Assembly: GCA_021229015.1 (NCBI GenBank)
Contig: CM037787.1
Coordinates: forward strand, 39,999,037-40,063,036
Source of the DNA: Solen grandis
Taxonomy: Eukaryota > Mollusca > Bivalvia > Adapedonta > Solenidae
Direction of reading: 5' to 3'
DNA: 64,000 bases
A program made the position numbers and the translations under genes. Shown in pieces: positions 1 through 42,690 of the stretch (positions are counted from its first letter, which is position 1; each line of letters opens with the position of its first letter). The notes beneath the pieces are model-generated. The model worked only from the letters and a program-made list of their open reading frames with translations, was not told where the DNA came from and searched no databases.

Positions 1-10069
<10,069 letters not shown>

Positions 10070-12173: not shown

Positions 12174-12828
12174 TCACTGGCAGGGAACACATGACCTAGC
12201 GCGCACCTGTTAGAACGCGACGAAAAGGTAAACAAACCGTGTTTTTCGTTATTTTCACTTTAAATCAGTACGAATATTTTAAAAAGAAGTAGCCTATAAA
12301 ATAACCACGTGTCTGTAGATTCTTTAAATGTATAGAATGCACACATTTACTTATTATTTAGTCCATAATTGCTGATCAAAAAATCGAATCGGGGATGCAG
12401 AACGCATGAAAGTTCTAACACTGCATAAGAAAAAGATGCTGTGCGCATACATATTTAGATTATTGAAGATATTTCAGTAATATTCAATGCTTTCTCACCC
12501 ATATCACTTGTAAAATGATCATTTATATGCCACGAAAACATATAGATTTCTTTTTGTAGAATATGCACAATAATCGTTATAATTTGCAAATATTGGAAAG
12601 ATGCAGGACGCATGAATTTTACCAAGATGATGCAGGACGCATAAAAATTGACAAACATTTTTGGTGATCAAGTATTGTGTTGAAATATTTTTCCACATTA
12701 TATTTCACAGGCATCTGTCATCAAAATGGCCGAGTCCGCTGAATCAAGCAGCATGAATACTGGTAATTTATCATTTTAATTATGAATAAAAACAATTTAT
12801 TATTTTATAGAATTCTGATTCGTTTGAA
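12174..12828 (+). repeat. Left long inverted repeat, with promoter region and exon 1
   Basis: It contains the outer GC-rich part, an AT-rich middle, an acceptor-like site (atttcacag at about 12703-12711), an ATG exon (12726-12762) with a GT donor, and a copy of the following acceptor plus 18 coding bases (AATTCTGATTCGTTTGAA). The match to the right arm stops at 12828. Confidence 0.85.
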
Positions 12829-16225: not shown

Positions 16226-18576
16226 TGTGTGGGTGTGTGTGGGGTGGGTGATAAAGATACATCATCATTATTATCAACATCGTCATCATTAGATTAAACA
16301 TCACTTTAATAGTTAATTCAATCTTTTTTATTTTTTTTATTATATTTTATATTTTTAATAAAAAAAGTCATTATTATTAAACTTAAGTAAAACAGATATT
16401 CTGATATACTGTTTTGTTACCTATCTGGATCAAGGCGAATATGCAGTTTCTCTATTGAAAGCTCTATAAACTGCCCCACCTCTGCAACAGTAACTGTTCC
16501 TTGACCACGTCTGTCAAGAAGAGTTAGCTCAGAAAACAAGGTTTCTCCCATCATTGAAGAAAAGGCTCTTACATTATATGTTCTCTTTTTGCAAATGTCA
16601 TATAGAAGAATCTTGGCATCGATGTTACTGACTAACGCTTCCCACAACTGTGCTGGCCATCCCTTTATATACATTCCTGGTGGTGGAAAATGCCCAGGGT
16701 TGTACCATTTCAAAAGACGGTTTCTTAGAAACATTCTTCTTTTCACCCTGTCAAGAGCAGATATGGCCGGGTCATCTTCTGCCTGCCACCATAGTCGAAT
16801 ATCCCTGCACAAACTGGCCTCCTCTTTGTCACCATTTTGGATCAACATGTCCTCTACCTTTTCACTTAAGTATGATACAGCTACTGGGACAGACATTGGT
16901 TCCAGAATTGTTTCTATCATGGCTAGAGACAAATTCGTCTGTTTTGACTTAGCAACATTTTTCCAAGCTCCATTGCTCATATTTTCTAATCCCCCTTTAC
17001 AAACCTTTCTTCGTGTTCTTGTTAACAAATGAGAAGAGTCAACGCATGCAACTTCAAATTGTTTTCTTTTTTCACTTAACTGTCCGATGTAGAAAAATGC
17101 GTTTTTAAGATTAGAATTTAACACGATATTTTCTTCAGCTGTGCAACCAATTGTATCTTCATCCGTTGTTTTATCTTCATTGTTCCGACTTTCTGTTGAG
17201 TGATTTGTTTCCTGTTTGCCACAGTCATTAAGTTCTTCAGACAATGGCGTATTAAAATGGATCCCATTTTTCCATTTTTCGTAATGCCTTTCCCAGACAT
17301 ATTCAGCGTGTATTATATTTAAACGCCCTTTTTTAAGTTTTTCTTCGCAACAGAAAAGGCCAAATTTGCAAGAGTATCAAGTTTTGCAATTGATGCGCTT
17401 CTTGGGGTTCGCGTTTTTGTAACCATCATTCGGCAAATAATAGTGCATACACAGTAGTTCTAATTTCTTTGCTTTTGTGGCACTTTCATTTATTGTCACG
17501 ATCTTCGTCTTCTTCAGGAATCGTACAATAACTCCACATCTCTCAACGATATGCGTTTTCACTGAATGAAATTTTTCTTTAATTTCTTGTGGTGTTTTGT
17601 CGTTCCATTGGCCCTTTGCATTCGTATTCTTGTCAGATTTCATCATTTTTAGAATACGTTCAGCCTGATCAAGTGTTATCGGGACCATCATTTTAGGGGT
17701 TGTTGTGATTGATTCGATAATTTCAGTTGCTTCTCGACTGTATTATCGTAGGGGATGCCTTGATCAATTGTTTCAACTTTTGTGTTATCGTCATCTTGAT
17801 TAATCTGGAATGCGCTTCTCTTTTATCCAACTCTTGTTCTTCACTATCCCTATTCTCTGTTTGCGCATCTTCTGTAGCGTCTGAAGCAGACACAGCTGTC
17901 GCTTCGGAAGGCTCATACAGGCCATTTTTCCTATTTTGGTCTTGTTTAGCTACTTTCAGACGATACTGCTTCACTCTTAATGAGAGAATTGGAAGTTTAA
18001 TCCCGTTGTTTGTACAAATTATTGTTCCACTTTGAAGTCTAAACCATGATACCTTCTTGTTCAAGTCTTTGAACATTTTCAGTATTTCTGATTTGTTCAG
18101 GTTCTCTGTTTGCTTCCAAACATCCTTTTGCAATTGCAAAAGCAGTTAATGGTTCCCCATTTACACTTCTAACAGCAAGAACGTGCCACTGACCATCGAA
18201 AGATATTGCTGGTACATGCAAACCGGCTTCGAAGCAAGAGTCTAACACATTTTCCAAAATTGCAGACATTATTTCCGTTGTCAGTGAATTACCTTTTGTA
18301 AACCAACATATTGGTGCACAGCGTATCGCACTCAGAGAGTTCCAGTCCCTGTCAAAATCATAACCAAGAAACACAACGACTACCGTAGCCTTTTCCCTTT
18401 TGAGTTCATAAAAACTATCCAGCACTTCTGAAATCATGTCAAGTAAATGCTTAAGTCTAACAACCAAAAACCGTTCAAACGAATCAGAATTCTATAAAAT
18501 AATAAATTGTTATTATTCATAATTAAAATGATAAATTACCAGTATTCATGCTGCTTGATTCAGCGGACTCGGCCAT
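16046..18576 (-). pseudogene. Transposase-like gene of the long-TIR element (decayed)
   Basis: Exon 1 (18576-18540, MAESAESSSMNT) lies in the right arm. The main coding block runs from about 18479 to 16421 and a last exon from 16157 to 16046, joined across a clean GT-AG intron (donor ataggtaaca, acceptor tattacag) in matching phase. The N-terminal part shows LGYDFDRDW, WFTKGNS and SFDGQW, reminiscent of an RNase H-fold DDE transposase. A middle acidic linker follows, and the C-terminal part has ALDRVKRRMFLRNRLLKW and a block ending GQGTVTVAEVGQFIELS, LDPDR. Frame changes occur near 18135, 17815 and between about 17395 and 17305, and the phase of exon 1 does not match the main block, so this copy is inactive. 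The family resembles uncharacterised multicopy mollusc proteins; the transposase role is an inference. Confidence 0.6.
16160..16224. repeat. (TA)n(GA)n microsatellite
   Basis: A TA tract joined to a GA tract, inside the last intron of the transposase-like gene (16158-16420). Confidence 0.95.
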
Positions 18577-19130
18577 TTTGATGACAGATGCCTGTGAAAT
18601 ATAATGTGGAAAAATATTTCAACACAATACTTGATCACCAAAAATGTTTGTCAATTTTTAAGCGTCCTGCATCATCTTGGTAAAATTCATGCGTCCTGCA
18701 TCTTTCCAATATTTGCAAATTATAACGATTATTGTGCATATTCTACAAAAAGAAATCTATATGTTTTCGTGGCATATAAATGATCATTTTACAAGTGATA
18801 TGGGTGAGAAAGCATTGAATATTTCTGAAATATCTTCAATAATCTAAATATGTATGCGCACAGCATCTTTTTCTTATGCAGTTTTAGAACTTTCATGCGT
18901 GCTGCATCCCCGATTCGATTTTTTGATCAGCAATTATGGACTACATAATAAGTAAATGTGTGCATTCTATACATTTAAAGAAACTACAGACACGTGGTTA
19001 TTTTATAGGCTACTTCTTTATAAAATATTCGTACTGATTTAAAGTGAAAATAACGAAAAACACGGTTTGTTTACCTTTTTGTTGCGTTCTAACAGGTGCG
19101 CGCTAGGTCACGTGTTCCCAGCCAGTGATG
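18474..19130 (-). repeat. Right long inverted repeat, with promoter region and exon 1
   Basis: Inverted copy of the left arm. The inner end falls inside the coding sequence of the transposase-like gene, 18 bases into its second exon. Confidence 0.85.
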
Positions 19131-19815
19131 TTCTGGCATATACATATACATGTATATTTTAGTGCAAATATATTTTGTCCATATTTTCAATCATATTCAA
19201 TATTTCTAAAATCGGCCATTATAGCAGCCTTATATATCCAGAAAAACAAGCTCTGTTAATGCTATGATCATGAGATGTAAAACATTTATAAAAAGTTTTA
19301 CAACTTTTATAAAAAGTTGTATTATTGCAACGAATGATATTTATATAAAACGAAAAAAGTAAAAGCATCAATAATGTGTTTTGCCCCTTAAACGCATTAA
19401 CAAAACTAACCGTGATTTAACTAATGCATTGATGTTGTTTTTTACTGTTCGAAATTGAAGTTTATTATTAGATTTTTTTTATTATTCCTTGTTTTGACTG
19501 TTTGAGTAGTTCTCTGATGGAACCCTAACATTTTACAAATTTCAAGTTTAATTGTCAAGAGTATAACTTTCTTGTATTGATATTGTCATGACCTAACTTC
19601 TTTTGCATCTACCTATAAAGTGTGTAGAGCATACCGGTATATATTATCTGCCGGGCTAAAAACTACGAATACGACAAACACTAATATTCCCGCTCAAACA
19701 AAAGTAATAAATTTCCGTGTGATGTAATTACCACGATTTGACGTCATATAGCACTTCCATTGGGTCCGTGCGTCAAAGGGACATAACCCAAATGGCTTAG
19801 GAGTCGCAAAATACA
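19131..19815. other. AT-rich spacer between transposon and viral element
   Basis: No gene seen. Its last 150 bases become more GC-rich with a CRE-like TTGACGTCAT near 19739, and may belong to the viral element. Confidence 0.4.
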
Positions 19816-19819
19816 CTAC

Positions 19820-19866
19820 GCGGACCCGGAAAATAAACGACGTCAAAGTTTTTTTTGCGGGTCCGC
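19820..19866. promoter_or_regulatory. 9-bp stem-loop upstream of the viral genes
   Basis: GCGGACCCG (19820-19828) and CGGGTCCGC (19858-19866) form a perfect 9-bp stem with a 29-base loop. No CRESS nonanucleotide (TATTAC core) lies in the loop. A second small hairpin (CGCAT/ATGCG) follows at once. It may be a leftover terminal or origin structure. Confidence 0.35.
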
Positions 19867-19891
19867 GCATGTTTATTATGCGGAAGTACAC

Positions 19892-19925
19892 TATAAATGA
19901 TGACGTCATCAAAGTGCGTTCTTAG
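19892..19925 (+). promoter_or_regulatory. TATA box, CRE site and start region for the + strand viral ORFs
   Basis: TATAAAT at 19892-19898 is followed directly by a perfect CRE palindrome TGACGTCA at 19901-19908 and an initiator-like TTAGTC at 19922. The first ATG is at 19935. The spacing fits a polymerase II promoter. Confidence 0.5.
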
Positions 19926-19934
19926 TCGGCCATC

Positions 19935-20300
19935 TTGTTTTTGTGTAAACAAGAGCGGGTTATGCTGCGGATGTCTGAAAATTCTTTCAGAATTATACAA
20001 TATTTCATACAAGTTACATTTATATTAATAATAGCCATTACATCGTGCATCTTTCTCTACCTTACAAAAGAAAAGGAATTTTATAGTGGAATTATAGGAT
20101 CTTGCTTTGGATTTATATGTCAGGGAGTAAAACTAAAAAAAATATCAAGATCAGGAATTATCAGGACAGCAAGGATCGGATTCAACAGACGGAAACAACA
20201 GATTTACAAGTGTGAGAAGGCGGGTTACATCCAATATATAGTTGTGACACATCCTCTGAAAGAGAAACCAATCACCTATTGCTTTAAAGTCGTCAAATAG
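19935..20300 (+). CDS. Unrecognised 121-aa ORF of the viral element
   Basis: It directly follows the TATA/CRE promoter and ends two bases before the next ATG (20303). Residues 25-45 form a hydrophobic segment (VTFILIIAITSCIFLYL) and the rest is Lys-rich. No family recognised. It could be a small non-structural protein or an altered capsid leader. Confidence 0.45.
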   Translation: MFLCKQERVMLRMSENSFRIIQYFIQVTFILIIAITSCIFLYLTKEKEFYSGIIGSCFGFICQGVKLKKISRSGIIRTARIGFNRRKQQIYKCEKAGYIQYIVVTHPLKEKPITYCFKVVK

Positions 20301-20302
20301 GT

Positions 20303-20532
20303 ATGTCTGGTTTCTTACTTCCTACATACAATTATTGTGGTCCTGGAAATCCTCTTCCAAATGGACCACCAAAAATCTTCTGGATAAAATCTGTATGGAA
20401 CATGATTATTGCTATGATGATGATTTCAAATCAGAAATGGAATGTGATGAATATATGTTGAAAAGATTAGATGAAATGGAATGGCAAAAAAGGACCCTCC
20501 CATATTGGCTTGTGAGAGGTGCAATTACTTAA
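20303..20532 (+). pseudogene. Parvovirus-type phospholipase A2 region (VP1-unique-like), frame-broken
   Basis: The calcium-loop motif GPGNP (20339-20353) is read from the ATG at 20303. The catalytic His-Asp motif HDYCYD (20401-20418) is read in a different frame, so there is a one-base break between them, near the A5 run at 20371-20375. In parvoviruses this enzyme domain in VP1 opens the endosomal membrane during entry. The order and spacing of both motifs match that family rather than secreted animal PLA2. A stop follows at 20530-20532, next to another A-run. Confidence 0.7.
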
Positions 20533-20664
20533 AAAAGGAAGTTAGGATATAATTTATACAACAAAAATATATCCAAAAAAGATAAAATAATAATAGAAAA
20601 ACTTGTAAAAGTTGCTGATAAAATAGAAAATAACAATAATTCTGTTTCTATACAGACAGAAGAC

Positions 20665-20838
20665 ATGCCGAAAACGAAGAAATTTCCTTCCCAGAGAAGA
20701 GGACAGTTAGTGAAACGAAGACGTGTGGCATATAATACAGAATCTAATGACAGAATTGCGGGAGACATGGGAATAGATAGCATCCTGAAACCCATCTCCA
20801 AATTGGATGTACCACCTGATGCTGAAACTTTGGAATAA
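20665..20838 (+). pseudogene. Basic linker segment of the capsid region
   Basis: A 57-codon open stretch rich in Lys/Arg near its start (MPKTKK, KRRR), which looks like a nuclear localisation signal, followed by a Pro/Asp stretch. It lies between the PLA2 region and the capsid ORF, where parvovirus-like VP1 proteins carry such signals. Confidence 0.45.
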
Positions 20839-20873
20839 TTATTTGTTGGAGATTCCAAAACGTTGAAATTTGA

Positions 20874-21869
20874 TTGCCCTGCAATATCTTCCTTGAAAAG
20901 CTACGGAATTACATGTATGTACACGTTCCCAGAGTACCCGGAAACAGTATTATCACCGAGCCAAATACACCGATAACAACAAACAAGATATATGATATCG
21001 ACTGCGAGAGTGTCGTCAAGACATCTCCAACTGCCCCAAATAATATCATCTGGGAGAAAGGACAACTCGACAATACAGCAAACTGGCTAGTTGCAAAAAC
21101 AGATTCAACCACCAGAAGTGCCAGTGTGTCTATGAAGTTTATGGACCTTGATTATCAGCCGTTATCAATCAAAGATTACATGTTGTATATCGTACCCAGG
21201 TCCAAACAACGGAAATTGGGTGATTGGATTGAACAGCATTCCAATAACGGAGAACTTCAAACAGCAAACCATGGTGTATTCTCTTGGATGTTTGATGACT
21301 TCTGCTATGAAGTCAAACCTATCTTTGCAAGGTATTGCTTTTGGGTAGATGATGCTTCTGGAGATAAAGCTGCAATCCAGCAGTCCGATGGAACAACCGT
21401 ACTGATTCCAAATCCACTAGCAGCTAACATCAGCAGGCTTGGACATTGGCAATTTAGAGATTTTCATCTCTATCAGTCTAACGTCAATCTCACACCATGC
21501 GATTCCTATGCCAGTGAGCTACTGATAGGTACGATTGGACAGTTTTCTTTCTCGGCTTTCCGCTTCCTTAGGTTCCATATCTACTACAAAAAAACACAAA
21601 TAGATGCGCAAAGTCTGTACTGGCAGCAACAACAGCAGTTCACAGTACCATTGCAAACCAGCGGATCCAGAAAATGTTATGGAATACCTGAATGGACAAC
21701 AAAGAAGTATGCTGATTGTGAGATCCTACCATCTACAGACCATGTCAACTTCTCTGGTATTATGACAAGCAATGTCGGAACCTTGGATCTATTTGCCGGA
21801 GGAAGACTGACCAAAACAACTGATCCGACAAATGTATTTCAGGAAGAGGACGAGGGTACTTGGTACTAA
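20874..21869 (+). pseudogene. Capsid-like ORF of the viral element (C-terminal VP part)
   Basis: A 331-residue open frame with a composition typical of a jelly-roll capsid (many Asn, Ser, Thr, aromatic residues, few Lys clusters). It follows the PLA2 region on the same strand and in another frame, with a break near 20839-20880. No specific capsid family can be named by eye. A role as a virion protein is inferred from position and from the upstream PLA2 motif. Confidence 0.55.
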
Positions 21870-22016
21870 GACATCAGTACTAACCCACAGTTGTTGGATT
21901 CGAACAAACATAACAGCGAACTGTTATACCTTTACTGTGTTTGGGTCTTCCTTTATTCATAGCACCCTTTTTTTCATTAACTGTTACATAACCTTTTCTT
22001 GTTTACATAAATACAA

Positions 22017-22670
22017 CTAATTACCACATCTGTAGTGTTCCTTGTTATTGCAACCTTCAACAGAATTAAAACAGTGATATTTTTCCAGATCGTCCCCTCT
22101 GATGGACCACACATTCCACCTATCTACAGACAATTTGCTTTTAATAGGAAAATTATTCGCAAAGCAAGCTACGGCCGGTACATCGAATTTCTTTATGTTT
22201 GACTCATATTTGGTGGAGAAAAGTACACCATTTTTTAAATGCTCAACTATATTCATGTTGAGAGTTGAAATATCAGTTCCCCTACTTATGTCAAAAATGA
22301 CAATAGGCTGACCTCCATAGGCATACGAAACATGATTCTCCATCATATTGGAGAATATTACAGCATTTTCTACAGCACTTACGTACTTTGACATAAATGT
22401 TTTGCCACTATTGCCTAGACAATCTTCAATCCATGTAACCTGTCTATCATTTCCTATGCCAGGTTTGATTTCTTCAATCACCTTCATTTGCCATTCCTTT
22501 AAGTTAACATTTTTATATGATAACCTGTCACTGTCTCCCTTCCTCAATCGCACCTCTTCCATAAACACACTCTCAAAAACCTTTCGATCACACGGTGCAA
22601 TTGTTGAAGGGATGTAATCCCCCCAGTTCAGGCCGCTGATACAGGTTTTACTGTAGATGTATCCAGACAC
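22017..22670 (-). pseudogene. CRESS-DNA-type Rep, helicase half only
   Basis: 217 codons with the superfamily 3 helicase motifs in order: Walker A GNSGKT (residues 86-91), Walker B IVIFDISR (123-130), motif C VACFANNFP (167-175) and DRW (183-185). The segment LKNGVLFSTKYES is typical of circovirus-like Rep proteins and unlike parvovirus NS1. The N-terminal HUH endonuclease domain is absent: a stop lies just upstream, near 22681. The ORF has no internal break and converges on the capsid ORF. Non-functional for replication as it stands. Confidence 0.75.
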
Positions 22671-22680
22671 CGTAGTAGTT

Positions 22681-23040
22681 AAAGTTTAGACCTTTTGTAA
22701 ATGCAACCCGAGTTCGATATCTGGTCGGTTGAAATGCATTTTAATCATACCCTTTGCATAAGATCTTCCTTAATATTTTTCTTATATAACATTGATCACA
22801 TGCATCACCATTTGTCTGGTTTGAGAGATATTTGTTTTAGTTTTGTGAACTTGATTAGTAATGTTAAAACAGTTGAAATGTCAATATCTTTAATAACATG
22901 CAGATATATTAAAATATGTTAGAGATGAACATTAAATCAATAATGTTCCCTTTAATGTTGGACATAAAATAACCTAGGAAAAAAAACAACAAAACAACAA
23001 CAAAAAAAGAAAAACGCTTCACTGTTCGTATTGTCGCGTG
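22681..23040. other. Spacer between viral element and GH10 remnant
   Basis: AT-rich; A-run region 22980-23010. Nothing coding recognised, and no endonuclease domain for the Rep. Confidence 0.45.
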
Positions 23041-24445
23041 ATAGATAAAAGAGACCCTAAAGACACCGTACTTTTAAGGATATTCAAATTCCAGACATAC
23101 TTAGATACGGTGGCCAATGCGGGCCTGCCCATCTGGATCACAGAGTTGACGGTCACGGAGCACGACGTAACACGAACATAAAAACCGCCCGACTGACGGA
23201 CCTGATGACGCTCTACTTCAGCCATCCTGCTGTGGAAGGAATCTTACTTTGGGGGTTCTGGGACGGACGCATCTCCAATCGAAACAACGCCCTGTTTGTA
23301 GGACAAACCGTACAGGTAAAATGTGTGTGTGTGTGTTAAAATGTTTATGAGATATGTATACAAAGGGAGTATGAATTTGCAAGGAAAAATAGCCTTTACC
23401 TGCATTTATGCTTAACAATTGAAAATAGTATCTTTGTGATTTATTTAGTCTAGATTATTTCAGCGATTAACTACTAACGCTTTAATTCTTGATTTCCTTA
23501 AAAGATTTTTGATTGCCTTAAATAAGCCCAACGCAGCGGGAAGAGCCTACCAACAACTCGTTAAGACTAAGTGGCGGACTGACGTCACACACCACGTGAC
23601 TGGACCAGGAGATTTCACTGTATGGTTTCAAAGGGCCCTACAATGTCACCGTCAGACAAGGAACATCTGTTTTGAAAAGCGAAACCTTTGACCTCTCGTC
23701 AACTGGCAACAAAATAAATATCAATGTCGGTAGGTTTGGTTGGATTACTCGCGAAACAATTTCTTTCCTAAGTCATATATAAATCTTGATGGTGACAATG
23801 GCGTCGTCTGTTATATATTTATTGTAAGATGCAAACGAAATGTAAGAGAAAAACCCATCGTGCCTCATTTGGCGAACACTGCCATGTTACGAAGCCGGGC
23901 CGTATTTGTGAGAAGCGAAGTGCGTTACCACGTTTGTCTACAGACGCAAGTTCTACTGTCAATACATATTAAATTATACCATTGAAATATGTATAGAGTA
24001 ACAGTCTCATACATTTTGTAAACGTTAAATTTAGAGAAACTGAAGAAAGAGGTTTTTGAAATCGGCATTATAAGTCTAGTTTATGCTGGAAAAAATGATT
24101 ATCAAAAATGTCTTTGAGAAATTTAAATTCGTTTTTTATTCAGTCATCTTATTTTGTTTCTATCCTCTCAAGAAAAATGTCAGTACTTCTTCACTTTGAA
24201 ATGTTGTGATCTAGCTGGAGTTATTATTTATAATAATTTAAAGCGTCGATATTACATCAATTTGAAATTTTGTTATCTAGCTTGCATTATTTTTTACAAT
24301 AATATAAGGATAAATACATATACAGTGAGGTAACACTAAAGGTATCTGAAATAATCGGACCTACATATAATTATTCTTACATACAAGTTGATCATTGCTT
24401 TTGTTTTCAGATGCTGTTGGTTCGAGTATCATTGTGGGAAAATGA
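23041..24445 (+). pseudogene. Glycoside hydrolase family 10 (xylanase-like), 3' end
   Basis: Three exon-like blocks survive. The first (about 23041-23315) has LDTVANAGLPIWITELTV, with the nucleophile Glu of GH10 in ITEL, then in another frame LMTLYFSHPAVEGILLWGFW. The second (about 23505-23729) has NAAGRAYQQLVKTKWRTD, then in another frame the Gly/Val-rich C-terminal tail. The third (24411-24445) ends in TGA. Donors gtaaaa and gtaggt and acceptor ttgttttcag remain, so it came from a genomic copy, not a retrocopy. Two frameshifts (near 23168-23175 and 23620) and no upstream exons with the acid/base Glu show it is broken. GH10 enzymes cut beta-1,4-xylan and occur in bivalves and snails. Confidence 0.75.
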
Positions 24446-24589
24446 AACTGACATTACTGATATAAATTTGAATATGTACATTGTAACAAAAGAACTAGCT
24501 ACTTCGTTCATTGTCCTTTTGCATTTAATTGTATCAATTTCATGTATGTGACGGATCTGATGACAATGGAAGGAAAACAACTCTACCTA

Positions 24590-24835
24590 TCCCATGGCCT
24601 AGTGGTTAAGGCATCCGCTTCGGGAGCGGGGGGTCGAAGGTTCGATCCCCGGTAGAGGAACGTTCTTAGATGGCCGGCTGGTTAGCCGCCAGTTAGTTAA
24701 ATAATGGTTACCGGTTGTCTTCTTGGCTGGTGCTTGGAACTGGGGAGGTAATTGTGAAAGCAAAGAGGTGTCTCATAAGTCAAATTTGGCTGGCTCTTTC
24801 AATAGGGGTGACACTTTAATAAACAAACACTTATC
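24590..24835 (+). mobile_element. tRNA-Pro-derived SINE
   Basis: The head has box A (TGGCCTAGTGG), an anticodon arm with loop TTCGGGA (CGG, Pro) and box B (GGTTCGATCCC). About 170 bp of unrelated body follow, ending at an A-rich TAATAAACAAACA tail. The acceptor stem is not paired, so it is not a working tRNA gene. Confidence 0.75.
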
Positions 24836-25064
24836 TACATAATATGCCTCTTGTTTAAAGGCGACCCCAGCCCCTTCACACACACAAAAAAAAAACAACA
24901 TAAAAAAGACTAGAGGTATCACTGAAGGTGATTAATACCCCTGTAAAATGCTTTGATACAGGAGAAGCCAGACTCCAGGCGGAGCATAGATAAGATCCTG
25001 TATACATAGTATATTGTTTACGATAGTAATTAATAAGTAAGTAAAGTTTTTATTTAAAGTGGAT

Positions 25065-25410
25065 AGAGAGACAGTTATGGCTGTTTGGCACAGTAGTTTA
25101 AAAGTGTAGAGTTAACCTCTTGGACACTGCACTTCTAGTCGCCATCTGTTTTAATTTTAAGTTTCAAGTAAATACCATGTATAATATTGGAGTTATGTTG
25201 AGGACAAGAAAAAAAGCAATTTAACAAAAGGAGATAGTTGAAAAATGGGACCAGGTAGAGTTACAGTTCTTGGACTCTGCTCTTTTCCTAGTCGCCATCT
25301 ATTTACATTTAAGTTTCAAGTCAATACTTTGTATGATTTTCGAGTTCTGTTCCGGACATGGAAAAAAAAAAAGAACAGAATTAAACAAAAGGAGATTATT
25401 CAAAAATGGG
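25065..25410. repeat. Tandem pair of about 170-bp repeat modules
   Basis: Two related segments with AGTCGCCATCT, TTTAAGTTTCAAGT and CAAAAGGAGAT in the same order, a pattern seen in bivalve interspersed repeats. Confidence 0.55.
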
Positions 25411-25603
25411 AACAGGGCAATAACTCTGCCAACCTTGAGACAACTTTAAAAACTTTTGGAATTTATGACACGCACCTTTCCTCCTTGTTATCAATGCACA
25501 CAAAAAATTTGAAATAAGTAACCGACAGCACAACACCAAATGTTACGGTACACTAAAAGTTTACTATATTAATAATAAAAATTCACCAAAAATGTCACTC
25601 TGC

Positions 25604-25657
25604 CACACACACACACACACACAAACATATATGTATATATATATTTATATATATATA

Positions 25658-25708
<51 letters not shown>
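25604..25708. repeat. CA/TA/GT microsatellite cluster
   Basis: Runs of CA, then TA with TTTATA interruptions, then GT. Confidence 0.9.
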
Positions 25709-25709
<1 letters not shown>

Positions 25710-26640
25710 GTTCGAAAAATGAAATTGATTATATTATGTATTTGTAAGGGATGGCGGCCATTTTCCAATAAATAATTACTGAAAAACAACAACAACAAAA
25801 AACCAACAACAGACAAGCAATTAATAAAATAAATACGCAGTTTGTAAAATAAAAGCCAGATGGTAATTAAAACATGAACATTAAAAAGGAATCGTTTTTA
25901 TGTTTTTCATTTGTATATATAATTAGTTTTGAAGCGAAAACACAACATGTGCTTCTTGTGCTGAAGCAACTGCTTTAAAAGAATACTGATACATTCTGTA
26001 CATAGAAATTATAAATATAGAATATAGATATAAATTGTAAGGTATGGAGGAGGGTTGCTAAGACCTCCACATACTAATAGACGTAGTTAATAAAAAGTAA
26101 AATGTGAAAAAAAGTTATATTTAAGTTCTTAGGTTTGGAAATGAAAACATTGCATCATTCCTGCTTTACACGTCTATTTCCCAACCTAATTTTTGCGCAC
26201 ATAACTTCAATTGATCTATTTTTAATTAAAATCTTATATATGATCTTAACTATATATTTGTTTTGAAAATGCTTACTCTCAGTATCAACATGTAATATTA
26301 TGTCGCTGAAACACCAAGTTTCGGTAAATAGCGGTATATTGCACATACATGTATGAGGGACAAGTGTTTCAGAAAATAGCTGTATATTGCACATGTGAGG
26401 GACACGTGTTTCTATCATATAGTTCCCTCAAGTGAAAATTGAATTAAAAAAAAGATATGTAAGCGTGCTATAGATTTCTTTTACAGTGTTTATTATACAC
26501 AAAATAGCAATTGGACTGTTTCATGTTTTGATAACAGAAAAGGCCAACAAGGAATGCACAAGAGTTTCTTTGTGTTGGAAGTGTTAAAGTACTATAGGCT
26601 ATATGCCTTATAGGTTAATTGCCATATTAAAAGTCACTGT
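25710..26640. other. AT-rich non-coding stretch
   Basis: No gene recognised. Around 26310-26415 a 65-bp segment (AATAGC.GTATATTGCACAT ... GAGGGACA) is present twice. Confidence 0.4.
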
Positions 26641-27047
26641 CATATTGTGCGCACATGCACCATAGTGTTCGCTTCGTATTTCGTCGACGTATATGAGCGT
26701 TGATCTGAAACAAAACAGGTATCTTGTTCCTTCTGGGATTCATAAAATGATTGATTATCGTCACTTGAAGGGTTGTCATTAAACTGGGAAGGCAGATCCG
26801 CAATATTATCTTGGTCCGTCAACGGTCAAGTTTTTATCGAAGTTGACGCTTCGGCAATATTGGCGACGCTTCTTCCTCTTCTGTCTGTCCGATTGGGTAA
26901 GATGCAGTACTCGCCGACGCTAGCGCTTGTTGCCGAAAGAGGACGTCAATTTTCTTATTAAGTCTCTCAAACGAAGTTTAAAGACTTACTGGTTTTACTC
27001 CGTTTCTTTTCATTATTATTTTTCTTTCTCTCGCCGGCCATATTTCA
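26640..27047 (-). pseudogene. Possible retroelement ORF1 (gag-like) 5' fragment
   Basis: On the - strand an ATG near 27041 opens a very basic start (MAGERKKNNNEKKRSKT). A shifted frame then gives SFERLNKKIDVLFRQQALAS and an acidic stretch EEEEASP. Further open sequence reaches 26640. Such basic, Ser/Glu-rich starts occur in DIRS-type and other mollusc retroelement proteins. This is a weak assignment without a reverse transcriptase nearby. Confidence 0.25.
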
Positions 27048-27424
27048 GAGGCCGCTTGACCAATCTTTACAAAACTTCACATACTTATAGTCCTCAATGA
27101 GCAGTAGTGCCTCCCTGATTTTTGTAAATGCGGGTCCTTGGGTGTTAGGCCCCACACCCTCACAGATGGATTTTTGCATAAAAATGTATTTTGTATTATA
27201 CTTACCTTCATCCTGCAATTGGTCATTATTCGGCCATTGATCTTTCAATGTTCTATCCGACTTTGTATTTGGACTACGACTGGAGAGTGCATGATTTGTG
27301 TGGAAGTTACCACTTTCCAATTATATTAACTAACATTAACTCTAGTAATGATGATACTCCTCTACGTTGGAATTAAAAAGAAAAGCTGATTGGAGTAAAT
27401 TTCAGACACTTTGTAATAAAGAGT

Positions 27425-40320: not shown

Positions 40321-40327
40321 TACTTAC

Positions 40328-42690
40328 AATATATTATAGTCTTTTATACATGTACAGTATTATAGTCTTATATACATGTACAATATATTATAGTCTTGTA
40401 TACATGTACAATATATTATAGTCTTATATACATGTACAATATATTATAGTCTTGTATACATGTACAGTATATTATAGTCTTATATACATGTACAATATAT
40501 TATAGTCTTGTATACATGTACAGAATATTATAGTCTTGTATACATGTACAGAATATTATAGTCTTGTATACATGTACAGTATATTATAGTCTTATATACA
40601 TGTACAATATATTATAGTCTTATATACATGTACAATATATTATAGTCTTGTATACATGTACAGTATATTATAGTCTTGTATACATGTACAGAATATTATA
40701 GTCTTATATACATGTACAGTATATTATAGTCTTGTATACATGTACAGTATATTATAGTCTTGTATACATGTACAGTATATTATAGTCTTATATACATGTA
40801 CAGTATATTATAGTCTTGTATACATGTACAGAATATTATAGTCTTGTATACATGTACAGTATATTATAGTCTTGTATACATGTACAGTATATTATAGTCT
40901 TATATACATGTACAATATATTATAGTCTTGTATACATGTACAGAATATTATAGTCTTATATACATGTACAGTATATTATAGTCTTGTATACATGTACAGT
41001 ATATTATAGTCTTGTATACATGTACAGTATATTATAGTCTTGTATACATGTACAATATATTATAGTCTTGTATACATGTACAGTATATTATAGTCTTGTA
41101 TACATGTACTATATTTTTAGTCTTGTATACATGTACAGTATATTATAGTCTTATATACATGTACAGTATATTATAGTCTTGTATACATGTACAGTATATT
41201 ATAGTCTTGTATACATGTACAGTATATTATAGTCTTGTATACATGTACAGAATATTATAGTCTTGTATACATGTACAATATATTATAGTCTTGTATACAT
41301 GTACAGCATATTATAGTCTTGTATACATGTACAGAATATTATAGTCTTATATACATGTACAGTATATTATAGTCTTGTATACATGTACAATATATTATAG
41401 TCTTATATACATGTACAATATATTATAGTCTTATATACATGTACAATATATTATAGTCTTATATACATGTACAATATATTATAGTCTTGTATACATGTAC
41501 AGATATATTATAGTCTTATATACATGTACAATATATTATAGTCTTATATACATGTACAATATATTATAGTCTTATATACATGTACAATATATCATAGTCT
41601 TGTATACATGTACAGAATATTATAGTCTTATATACATGTACAGTATATTATAGTCTTGTATACATGTACAGTATATTATAGTCTTGTATACATGTACAGT
41701 ATATAATAGTCTTATATACATGTACAATATATTATAGTCTTATATACATGTACAGTATATTATAGTCTTGTATACATGTACAATATATTATAGTCTTGTA
41801 TACATGTACAGTATATTATAGTCTTATATACATATACAGTATTATATAGTCTTGTATACATGTACAATATATTATAGTCTTATATACATATACAGTATAT
41901 TATAGTCTTGTATACATGTACAGTATATTATAGTCTTGTATACATGTACAGTATATTATAGTCTTATATACATGTACAGAATATTATAGTCTTGTATACA
42001 TGTACAGAATATTATAGTCTTATATACATGTACAATATATTATAGTCTTGTATACATGTACAGAATATTATAGTCTTGTATACATGTACAGAATATTATA
42101 GTCTTATATACATGTACAGAATATTATAGTCTTGTATACATGTACAGTATATTATAGTCTTGTATACATGTACAGTATATTATAGTCTTGTATACATGTA
42201 CAGAATATTATAGTCTTATATACATGTACAGAATATTATAGTCTTGTATACATGTACAGTATATTATAGTCTTGTATACATGTACAGAATATTATAGTCT
42301 TGTATACATGTACAGATATATTATAATCTTTATACATGTACATATATTATAGTCTTGTATACATGTACAGTATATTATAGTCTTGTATACATGTACAGCA
42401 TATTATAGTCTTATATACATATACAGTATATTATAGTCTCCTATACAGCATATTATAGTCTTATATACATATACAGTATATTATAGTCTTACTTACATAT
42501 AAAGTACATTATAGTCGTATATACAGTATATTATAATCTTATATACAGTATAATATATTCTTATATACAGTATACTATAGTTTTATATACAATAAACTAT
42601 AGTTTTATATACAGTATAATATAATTACAGTATATTATTGTCTTATATACAGTATATTAAAGTCTTATATACATGTGCAATATATGTTTC
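40328..42690. repeat. Minisatellite, 28-bp unit, about 84 copies
   Basis: Direct tandem copies of TATATTATAGTCTTGTATAC plus ATGTACAG. GTATAC/ATATAC and CAGTAT/CAATAT/CAGAAT variants are intermixed. The last 250 bases are degenerate with shortened units. The unit contains the palindrome TGTACA, so single strands could fold. Confidence 0.97.

Follow-up and report, generated by a model that had tools for sequence, protein, structure and literature searches.

A block of about 2.92-2.99 kb in the window, by which we mean the whole 64,000-nucleotide stretch of the Solen grandis genome analysed here (C11:39,999,037-40,063,036 of a 1.32 Gb assembly), is a truncated and decayed germline insertion of viral DNA, not a whole viral genome. 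It occupies ~19,707-22,631, and we are confident that it derives from a small circular-genome single-stranded DNA (ssDNA) virus that paired a parvovirus-type VP1, bearing a phospholipase A2 (PLA2), with a replication protein (Rep) of the CRESS (circular Rep-encoding ssDNA) type. We lean, with some reserve, towards a wider reading in which the block belongs to an undescribed lineage of bivalve circular ssDNA viruses with a circle of ~4.8 kb, built on a zinc-finger CRESS Rep core and exchanging the structural module as a whole: a PLA2 capsid in the elements we call type A, unrelated putative capsid genes in those we call type B. An earlier note, made from the sequence of the window, had placed a hybrid of this kind at 19,820-22,680. 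The block is real, and sister copies of the same architecture support the hybrid reading; its limits, however, shift to 19,707 and 22,631 by sister homology and duplicated host DNA. On the plus strand, a hairpin-bearing control region is followed by a small gene and by VP1 (PLA2 and capsid), which faces a convergent Rep on the minus strand:

19,646-19,707: left host/virus junction; matches to host repeats run as far as 19,633 and 19,645, and sister homology begins at 19,707
19,707-19,961, plus strand: viral non-coding control region, homologous at three other type-A loci
19,819-19,867: hairpin in the control region with 20-nt arms and a 9-nt loop (inverted repeat 90%), a candidate replication origin
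19,962-20,300, plus strand: small protein gene conserved across types A and B, in which hydrophobic stretches can be made out by eye
20,303-20,461, plus strand: VP1 N-terminus with the calcium-loop part of PLA2 (GPGNP); PF08398 positions 2-22, E 0.0014, below cut-off
20,335-20,532, plus strand, in a different frame: catalytic part of the VP1 PLA2 (HDYCYD); PF08398 positions 23-70, E 0.074, and PF00068, E 0.0033, both below cut-off
20,665-20,838, plus strand: N-terminus of a putative shorter capsid protein (MPK...), 65%, 67% and 57% identical in amino acids to the L021, L024 and L023 copies and matching the N-terminus of P0008
20,874-21,869, plus strand: main part of the capsid protein, open over 331 codons; homologous from about 20,928, 56% identical in amino acids to the L021 copy
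22,017-22,631, minus strand: SF3 helicase half of Rep, open, 69-71% identical in amino acids to the L021 and L022 Reps; the HUH part is cut off by the junction
22,631: right virus/host junction; duplicated host DNA from here on, the paralogue differing leftward

The pairing of capsid and Rep is borne out by copies elsewhere in the same genome. The capsid reading frame at 20,874-21,869 found one relative among 477 candidates, P0008, a protein of 417 amino acids present on three contigs of up to 4,822 bp, with 50% identity over 95% (329 aligned columns, E 4.9e-97). In this genome P0008 has six matches, spread over four loci, namely the window, C11:59.25 Mb (L021), C5:71.66 Mb (L023) and C13:59.43 Mb (L024), to which the homology of the window begins at 19,707 (C11:59.25 Mb), 19,711 (C13) and 19,737 (C5). 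A convergent Rep stands beside the capsid at three of these four capsid loci (the window, L021 and L023); around the C13 copy no Rep was found within C13:59,426,000-59,442,000 (three stretches). The claim of a single linked block thus agrees with the other copies: the same adjacency and orientation recur at two further loci, on which ground we reject a chance neighbourhood of Rep and capsid. That two unrelated insertions simply came to abut, a reading for which we found no supporting point, has in our estimate a negligible probability.

All of the motifs named at the outset are present, GPGNP and HDYCYD on the plus strand and GNSGKT, IFDISR, LKNG, STKYES, FANNFP and DRW together in one open minus-strand frame, 22,017-22,670. 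A frame change divides the PLA2, GPGNP and HDYCYD lying in different frames; the two pieces match positions 2-22 and then 23-70 of PF08398, in the right order, and, with the relatives of the capsid and Rep frames, this makes the observed motifs more than chance. The HDYCYD piece is 64% and 60% identical in amino acids to the L021 and L023 copies. In L021, PLA2 and capsid share one open frame, 521 codons long (PF08398 E 2.1e-8, 34.8 bits), and L023 holds them in an open frame of 467 codons up to the end of the insertion (E 8.3e-10, 39.2 bits; cut-off 23.9 for both). The solved structures nearest to the L021 VP1 are parvovirus VP1 chains (9me0 at 3.9e-5, several capsid proteins at ~4e-4), with secreted phospholipases behind (best 0.0024). 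Together with the open frames of L021 and L023, these matches make the PLA2 part of VP1 in this lineage. A second, shorter capsid product may start at MPK. Besides the frame change inside PLA2, VP1 in the window carries stops near 20,530 and 20,836 and a second frame change at ~20,840-20,950 (partly read by eye). Because VP1 is split in this way and Rep is without its nuclease half, the window genes are unlikely to work; judged by sequence, both are likely non-functional.

The Rep frame has seven relatives at E ≤ 0.01 among 49 candidates (best 6e-35), four of which (P0002, P0003, P0006 and P0007) are annotated with PF02407, the CRESS Rep nuclease. On re-scanning four of the relatives, P0002 matched this family at 7.2e-16 and P0004 at 0.016; P0005 and P0001, the latter on a 1.14 Mb contig, gave no match. 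The HUH domain missing from the window, which the earlier note had suggested might be sought elsewhere in the genome, can be recognised by its motifs in the copies on C5 and C16, whose open Reps are longer (L022 on C16, 434 codons; L023 on C5, 445 codons). Close to the N-terminus both have C2H2 zinc fingers (zf-met at 5.1e-7 in L022, above cut-off; zf-C2H2_6 at 1.3e-4 in L023, below it), followed by a further finger, H-x-H, Y-x-x-K and the SF3 motifs; the HUH-type motifs are HLH at 151 and YITK at 197 in L022, and HSH at 170 and YVTK at 213 in L023. Their SF3 motifs align with those of the PF02407 proteins, and PF00910 is matched weakly, below cut-off (L023 0.0085, L021 0.018, L022 0.076). A profile of eight Reps, itself containing CRESS Reps, has PDB matches among the Reps of circoviruses and nanoviruses (best 4e-12). 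Near the window Rep itself, a permissive tblastn for an HUH remnant returned no more than two matches at chance level and the edge already known (15 residues), and a decayed HUH at 22,686-22,770, upstream of Rep, was rejected as a candidate, the DNA from 22,631 on being host.

Ambisense densoviruses likewise have a VP1 with PLA2 and genes in convergent order, and to this extent the block resembles an ambidensovirus-like parvovirus whose NS1 merely looks like a CRESS Rep. A placement of Rep within parvovirus NS1 was a possibility raised from the start; yet none of four Reps (window, L021, L022, L023) matches PF01057 (NS1) at E ≤ 1, PF02407 is present in four of the seven relatives (profile matches, no tree), and one integration is permuted, as described next. 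We reject the NS1 reading and consider it highly improbable.

The form of the viral genome is best read from the copy on C5. The insert of 4,907 bp (L023 2,085-6,991) lies inside a long interspersed nuclear element (LINE) with exact junctions and a 13-bp target deletion, and its flanks are the two halves of the LINE reverse transcriptase (RVT_1 1-92 and 100-203). LINE matches elsewhere agree with this: 26 of 43 end exactly at L023:2,084 and none crosses it (40 of 172 candidates scored), and an unoccupied copy on C12 aligns to L023 1,954-2,084 (98.5%) and 6,992-7,548 (100%), with 13 bases between that are absent from C5. The viral order is permuted: the N-terminal part of the capsid, the control region (twice, 336 bp apart) and Rep, with the capsid C-terminus beyond Rep. 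The capsid gene contains both viral ends and lacks ~217 bp (the equivalent of window 21,593-21,809). Such an order implies that the integrated molecule was circular or a head-to-tail concatemer, not a classic linear parvovirus; the linear genome with hairpin ends of Parvoviridae differs from what this one locus displays. The viral genome was probably circular, though at this one locus a head-to-tail concatemer fits the permutation equally well. Arithmetic gives a circle of ~4.8 kb, and its agreement with the 4,822 bp of the longest P0008 contig is suggestive only.

PMC11071296 reports parvoviruses that encode a CressRep as an auxiliary to NS1 (the Parvo3071 type), and possibly circular parvoviruses as well. 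Those of the Parvo3071 type share with our elements a CRESS Rep and a parvovirus-like capsid, and the window insertion is truncated, as would suit a virus of that type whose CressRep-capsid part alone had integrated. The Parvo3071 type carries NS1, however, whereas none was found in the bounded C5 insert: all 15 of its open reading frames (ORFs) of at least 70 codons were compared with Pfam at E ≤ 1 and yielded neither NS1 nor a transposase, the families present being PLA2, zinc fingers and a weak helicase match, with no other near cut-off. This covers that segment, and a second segment with NS1 is possible; we regard an origin of the Parvo3071 type as improbable.

Divergence between the copies bears on how they arose. 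The ratio of nonsynonymous to synonymous change (dN/dS) is 0.17 for the capsid between L021 and L023, and for Rep 0.19 (L021-L023), 0.20 (L022-L023) and 0.31 (L021-L022). Pairs that include the window are synonymously saturated, so that no ratio can be given for them; their proportions of synonymous (pS) and nonsynonymous (pN) differences are 0.77-0.85 and 0.22-0.42, both slightly raised by ~18 Rep-ORF codons past the viral junction and ~18 capsid-ORF codons before the homologous part. The small gene has pS 0.66-0.90 against pN 0.06-0.17 in nine of ten pairs, the tenth, L021-L024, giving 0.12 and 0.03. From the low dN/dS and low pN it follows that the genes diverged under protein-level purifying selection. 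Capsid, Rep and small genes accordingly diverged while functional, before their chromosomal decay, as is expected of replicating viruses.

A rival origin is a host transposable element derived from such a virus and spreading as DNA, in place of repeated virus integrations; protein-level constraint on capsid and Rep is, however, best explained by replicating viruses. Such an element would fit the presence of several copies in the genome, the ~7.8 kb duplicated in tandem on C16, the cuts ~20 bp apart in the Rep of the window and L021, and the near-common homology start in three copies. Yet the C5 ends differ from those of the window and L021, 13 bp of target were deleted, and no transposase is found in the 15 C5-insert ORFs; we think this origin distinctly unlikely.

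The wider lineage reading draws on a second set of copies, type B, which comprises L022, L025, L030, L033 and L034 (C16:15.607-15.678 Mb, partly in the tandem duplication of about 7.8 kb) and L027 (C11:30.77 Mb). With type A they share the small gene and the 3' part of the control region, and the fuller copies also end in a convergent Rep; their structural ORFs are unrelated. In L022 these number 301, 528 and 324 codons, without a Pfam match above chance, and the 528-codon ORF matches a Mactra antiquata protein (P0009) at 36% identity over 60%, a match that in itself points to a molluscan host. By their position they are presumably capsid genes. The 3' half of the type-B Rep and ~57 bp past its stop are 94.5% identical in DNA to type-A L021, and the L021 Rep is 90% identical in amino acids to the type-B Rep against 66% to the type-A window Rep, whereas between type B and L021 the capsid regions do not match at E ≤ 1e-5 and identity in the control regions is ~70%. 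A near-identical Rep half joined to unrelated structural genes points to exchange of the structural modules, and on a plain reading of the sequences structural modules and Rep would have recombined between element types. A more ancient and heavily decayed type-B copy, L028-L029 (C16:15,599,775-15,602,065), has a diverged Rep of its own (27-50% identical in amino acids) beside a type-B ORF that has likewise diverged (31-40%).

The control region contains the hairpin that we propose as a candidate replication origin. Folded as ssDNA, 19,800-19,900 reaches -25.2 kcal/mol (z -6.08), a value equalled by none of 200 shuffles. The stretch 19,805-19,860 has, besides, inverted matches in the L021 and L023 copies, and the 3' part of the control region, from 19,871, recurs in the type-B copies on C16 and at C11:30.77 Mb. 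A bacterial-type promoter scan gave nothing useful. By analogy with the families concerned, Rep would nick an origin near this hairpin to drive rolling-circle replication, and PLA2 would breach the endosome during entry, as in parvoviruses, in which its role in endosomal escape is described in PMC11945456. Circles or linear products may then have been captured in germline chromosomes at DNA breaks by end joining, with which the 13-bp target deletion would be consistent.

Several results weigh against the pairing of a parvovirus-type VP1 with a CRESS-type Rep in a circular virus. The Reps of this genome (window, L021, L022 and L023) do not match PF02407, and in the PDB a profile of these four turns up zinc-finger chains for the most part, none of its matches being a CRESS Rep (best E 0.012). 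The eight-Rep profile includes CRESS Reps and the four-Rep profile matches none, so it is the relatives and the motifs that support the CRESS affinity. No solved capsid in the PDB is matched by the main part of the capsid, by sequence or by profile, nothing in Pfam, PHROGs or NCBIfam is either, and its structure prediction failed (predicted local distance difference test, pLDDT, 29.1); the PLA2 is thus the one part that is parvovirus-like by test, and a parvovirus jelly-roll of the capsid is unproven. The core of the CRESS stem-loop nonamer NANTATTAC occurs at both C5 control-region copies but away from the loop, and its four matches in L023 are no excess over the 2.2 expected by chance. Both junctions are mapped against an unoccupied copy at one of the four capsid loci, that on C5. 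Eight scans of viral contigs all ended without a relative, and no exogenous virus with both genes was found; a scan of a phage collection gave no useful match.

Set beside known systems, the likeness to Parvoviridae lies in VP1, where a PF08398 PLA2 with calcium-loop and HD motifs stands at the N-terminus of a long capsid protein; the difference is that no NS1 was found and that the main part of the capsid has no detectable relation to solved parvovirus capsids. With the Cressdnaviricota Rep of circovirus and nanovirus type, our elements share HUH-type nuclease motifs followed by SF3 motifs (by motif, in L022 and L023; the window copy is without the nuclease), and differ from it in H-x-H in L022 and L023 against H-x-Q in P0002, P0003 and P0006, in the C2H2 fingers ahead of H-x-H, and in the PLA2 capsid. 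Cruciviruses likewise join a CRESS Rep to a foreign capsid, in their case derived from RNA viruses, whereas the capsid here is of PLA2 type. NIH-CQV/PHV have been reported as hybrids between the parvovirus and circovirus groups; by description they are alike in this respect, and they differ in that chromosomal copies fix the host here. PHV has been argued to represent reagent artefacts or kit contaminants without a proven host (PMC13141889), and parvoviruses have been derived from CRESS viruses (Kazlauskas et al., PMC6668415). In the titles and abstract openings of open-licence literature, we found no description of such an element. It belongs among the known hybrid ssDNA viruses, and its novelty is that PLA2 is paired with a CRESS Rep, that no NS1 is detected and that host junctions are present.

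Copies in chromosomes, of which one has its two junctions placed to the base, are evidence of host that contamination would not easily mimic. A PLA2 capsid on a circular-type replicon, together with a near-identical Rep half beside unrelated structural genes, allows the frequency of capsid exchange between parvoviruses and CRESS viruses, and the side on which PLA2 originated, to be tested. If a lineage with exchanged structural modules is correct, parvovirus entry machinery would move between circular and linear ssDNA viruses, with the hosts fixed.

Around the right junction, the DNA from 22,631 rightward recurs at C11:36,997,086-37,004,000, at 95%, then 93% and 85% identity with extra DNA between. 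This is a segmental duplication within C11 (window 22,631-27,165, 85-95%, ~3 Mb apart) that starts exactly at the viral junction. Host DNA begins there, so the first 13 residues of the ORF at 22,017-22,670 are host sequence. The paralogue at C11:37.0 Mb was rejected as an empty site, its match being limited to the right flank. The window (22,631) and L021 (2,684-2,703) are both cut in Rep, within ~20 bp, and homology starts near one control-region point (19,707-19,711) in the window, L021 and L024; the common cut points possibly reflect preferred breakage or defective molecules. On either side of the L021 insertion stands a direct copy, ~2.5 kb long, of retroelement-like DNA, the two being 99% identical (L021 157-2,692 and 5,634 onward; C11:59.24-59.25 Mb). 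Other relics of CRESS-type Reps, partly 38-45% identical, lie at L026 (C15:39.932 Mb), L017 (C6), L018 (C4) and L019 (C2), and no type-A or type-B structural gene occurs in 8.5 kb around the C15 relic. Elsewhere in the window, a high-copy host repeat at 18,474-19,128 (~98% among its best copies) has an inverted copy at 12,174-12,802, and two large satellites, at 6,665-8,263 and 40,325-42,559, consist of 57 and 80 copies of 28-bp units that differ in sequence.

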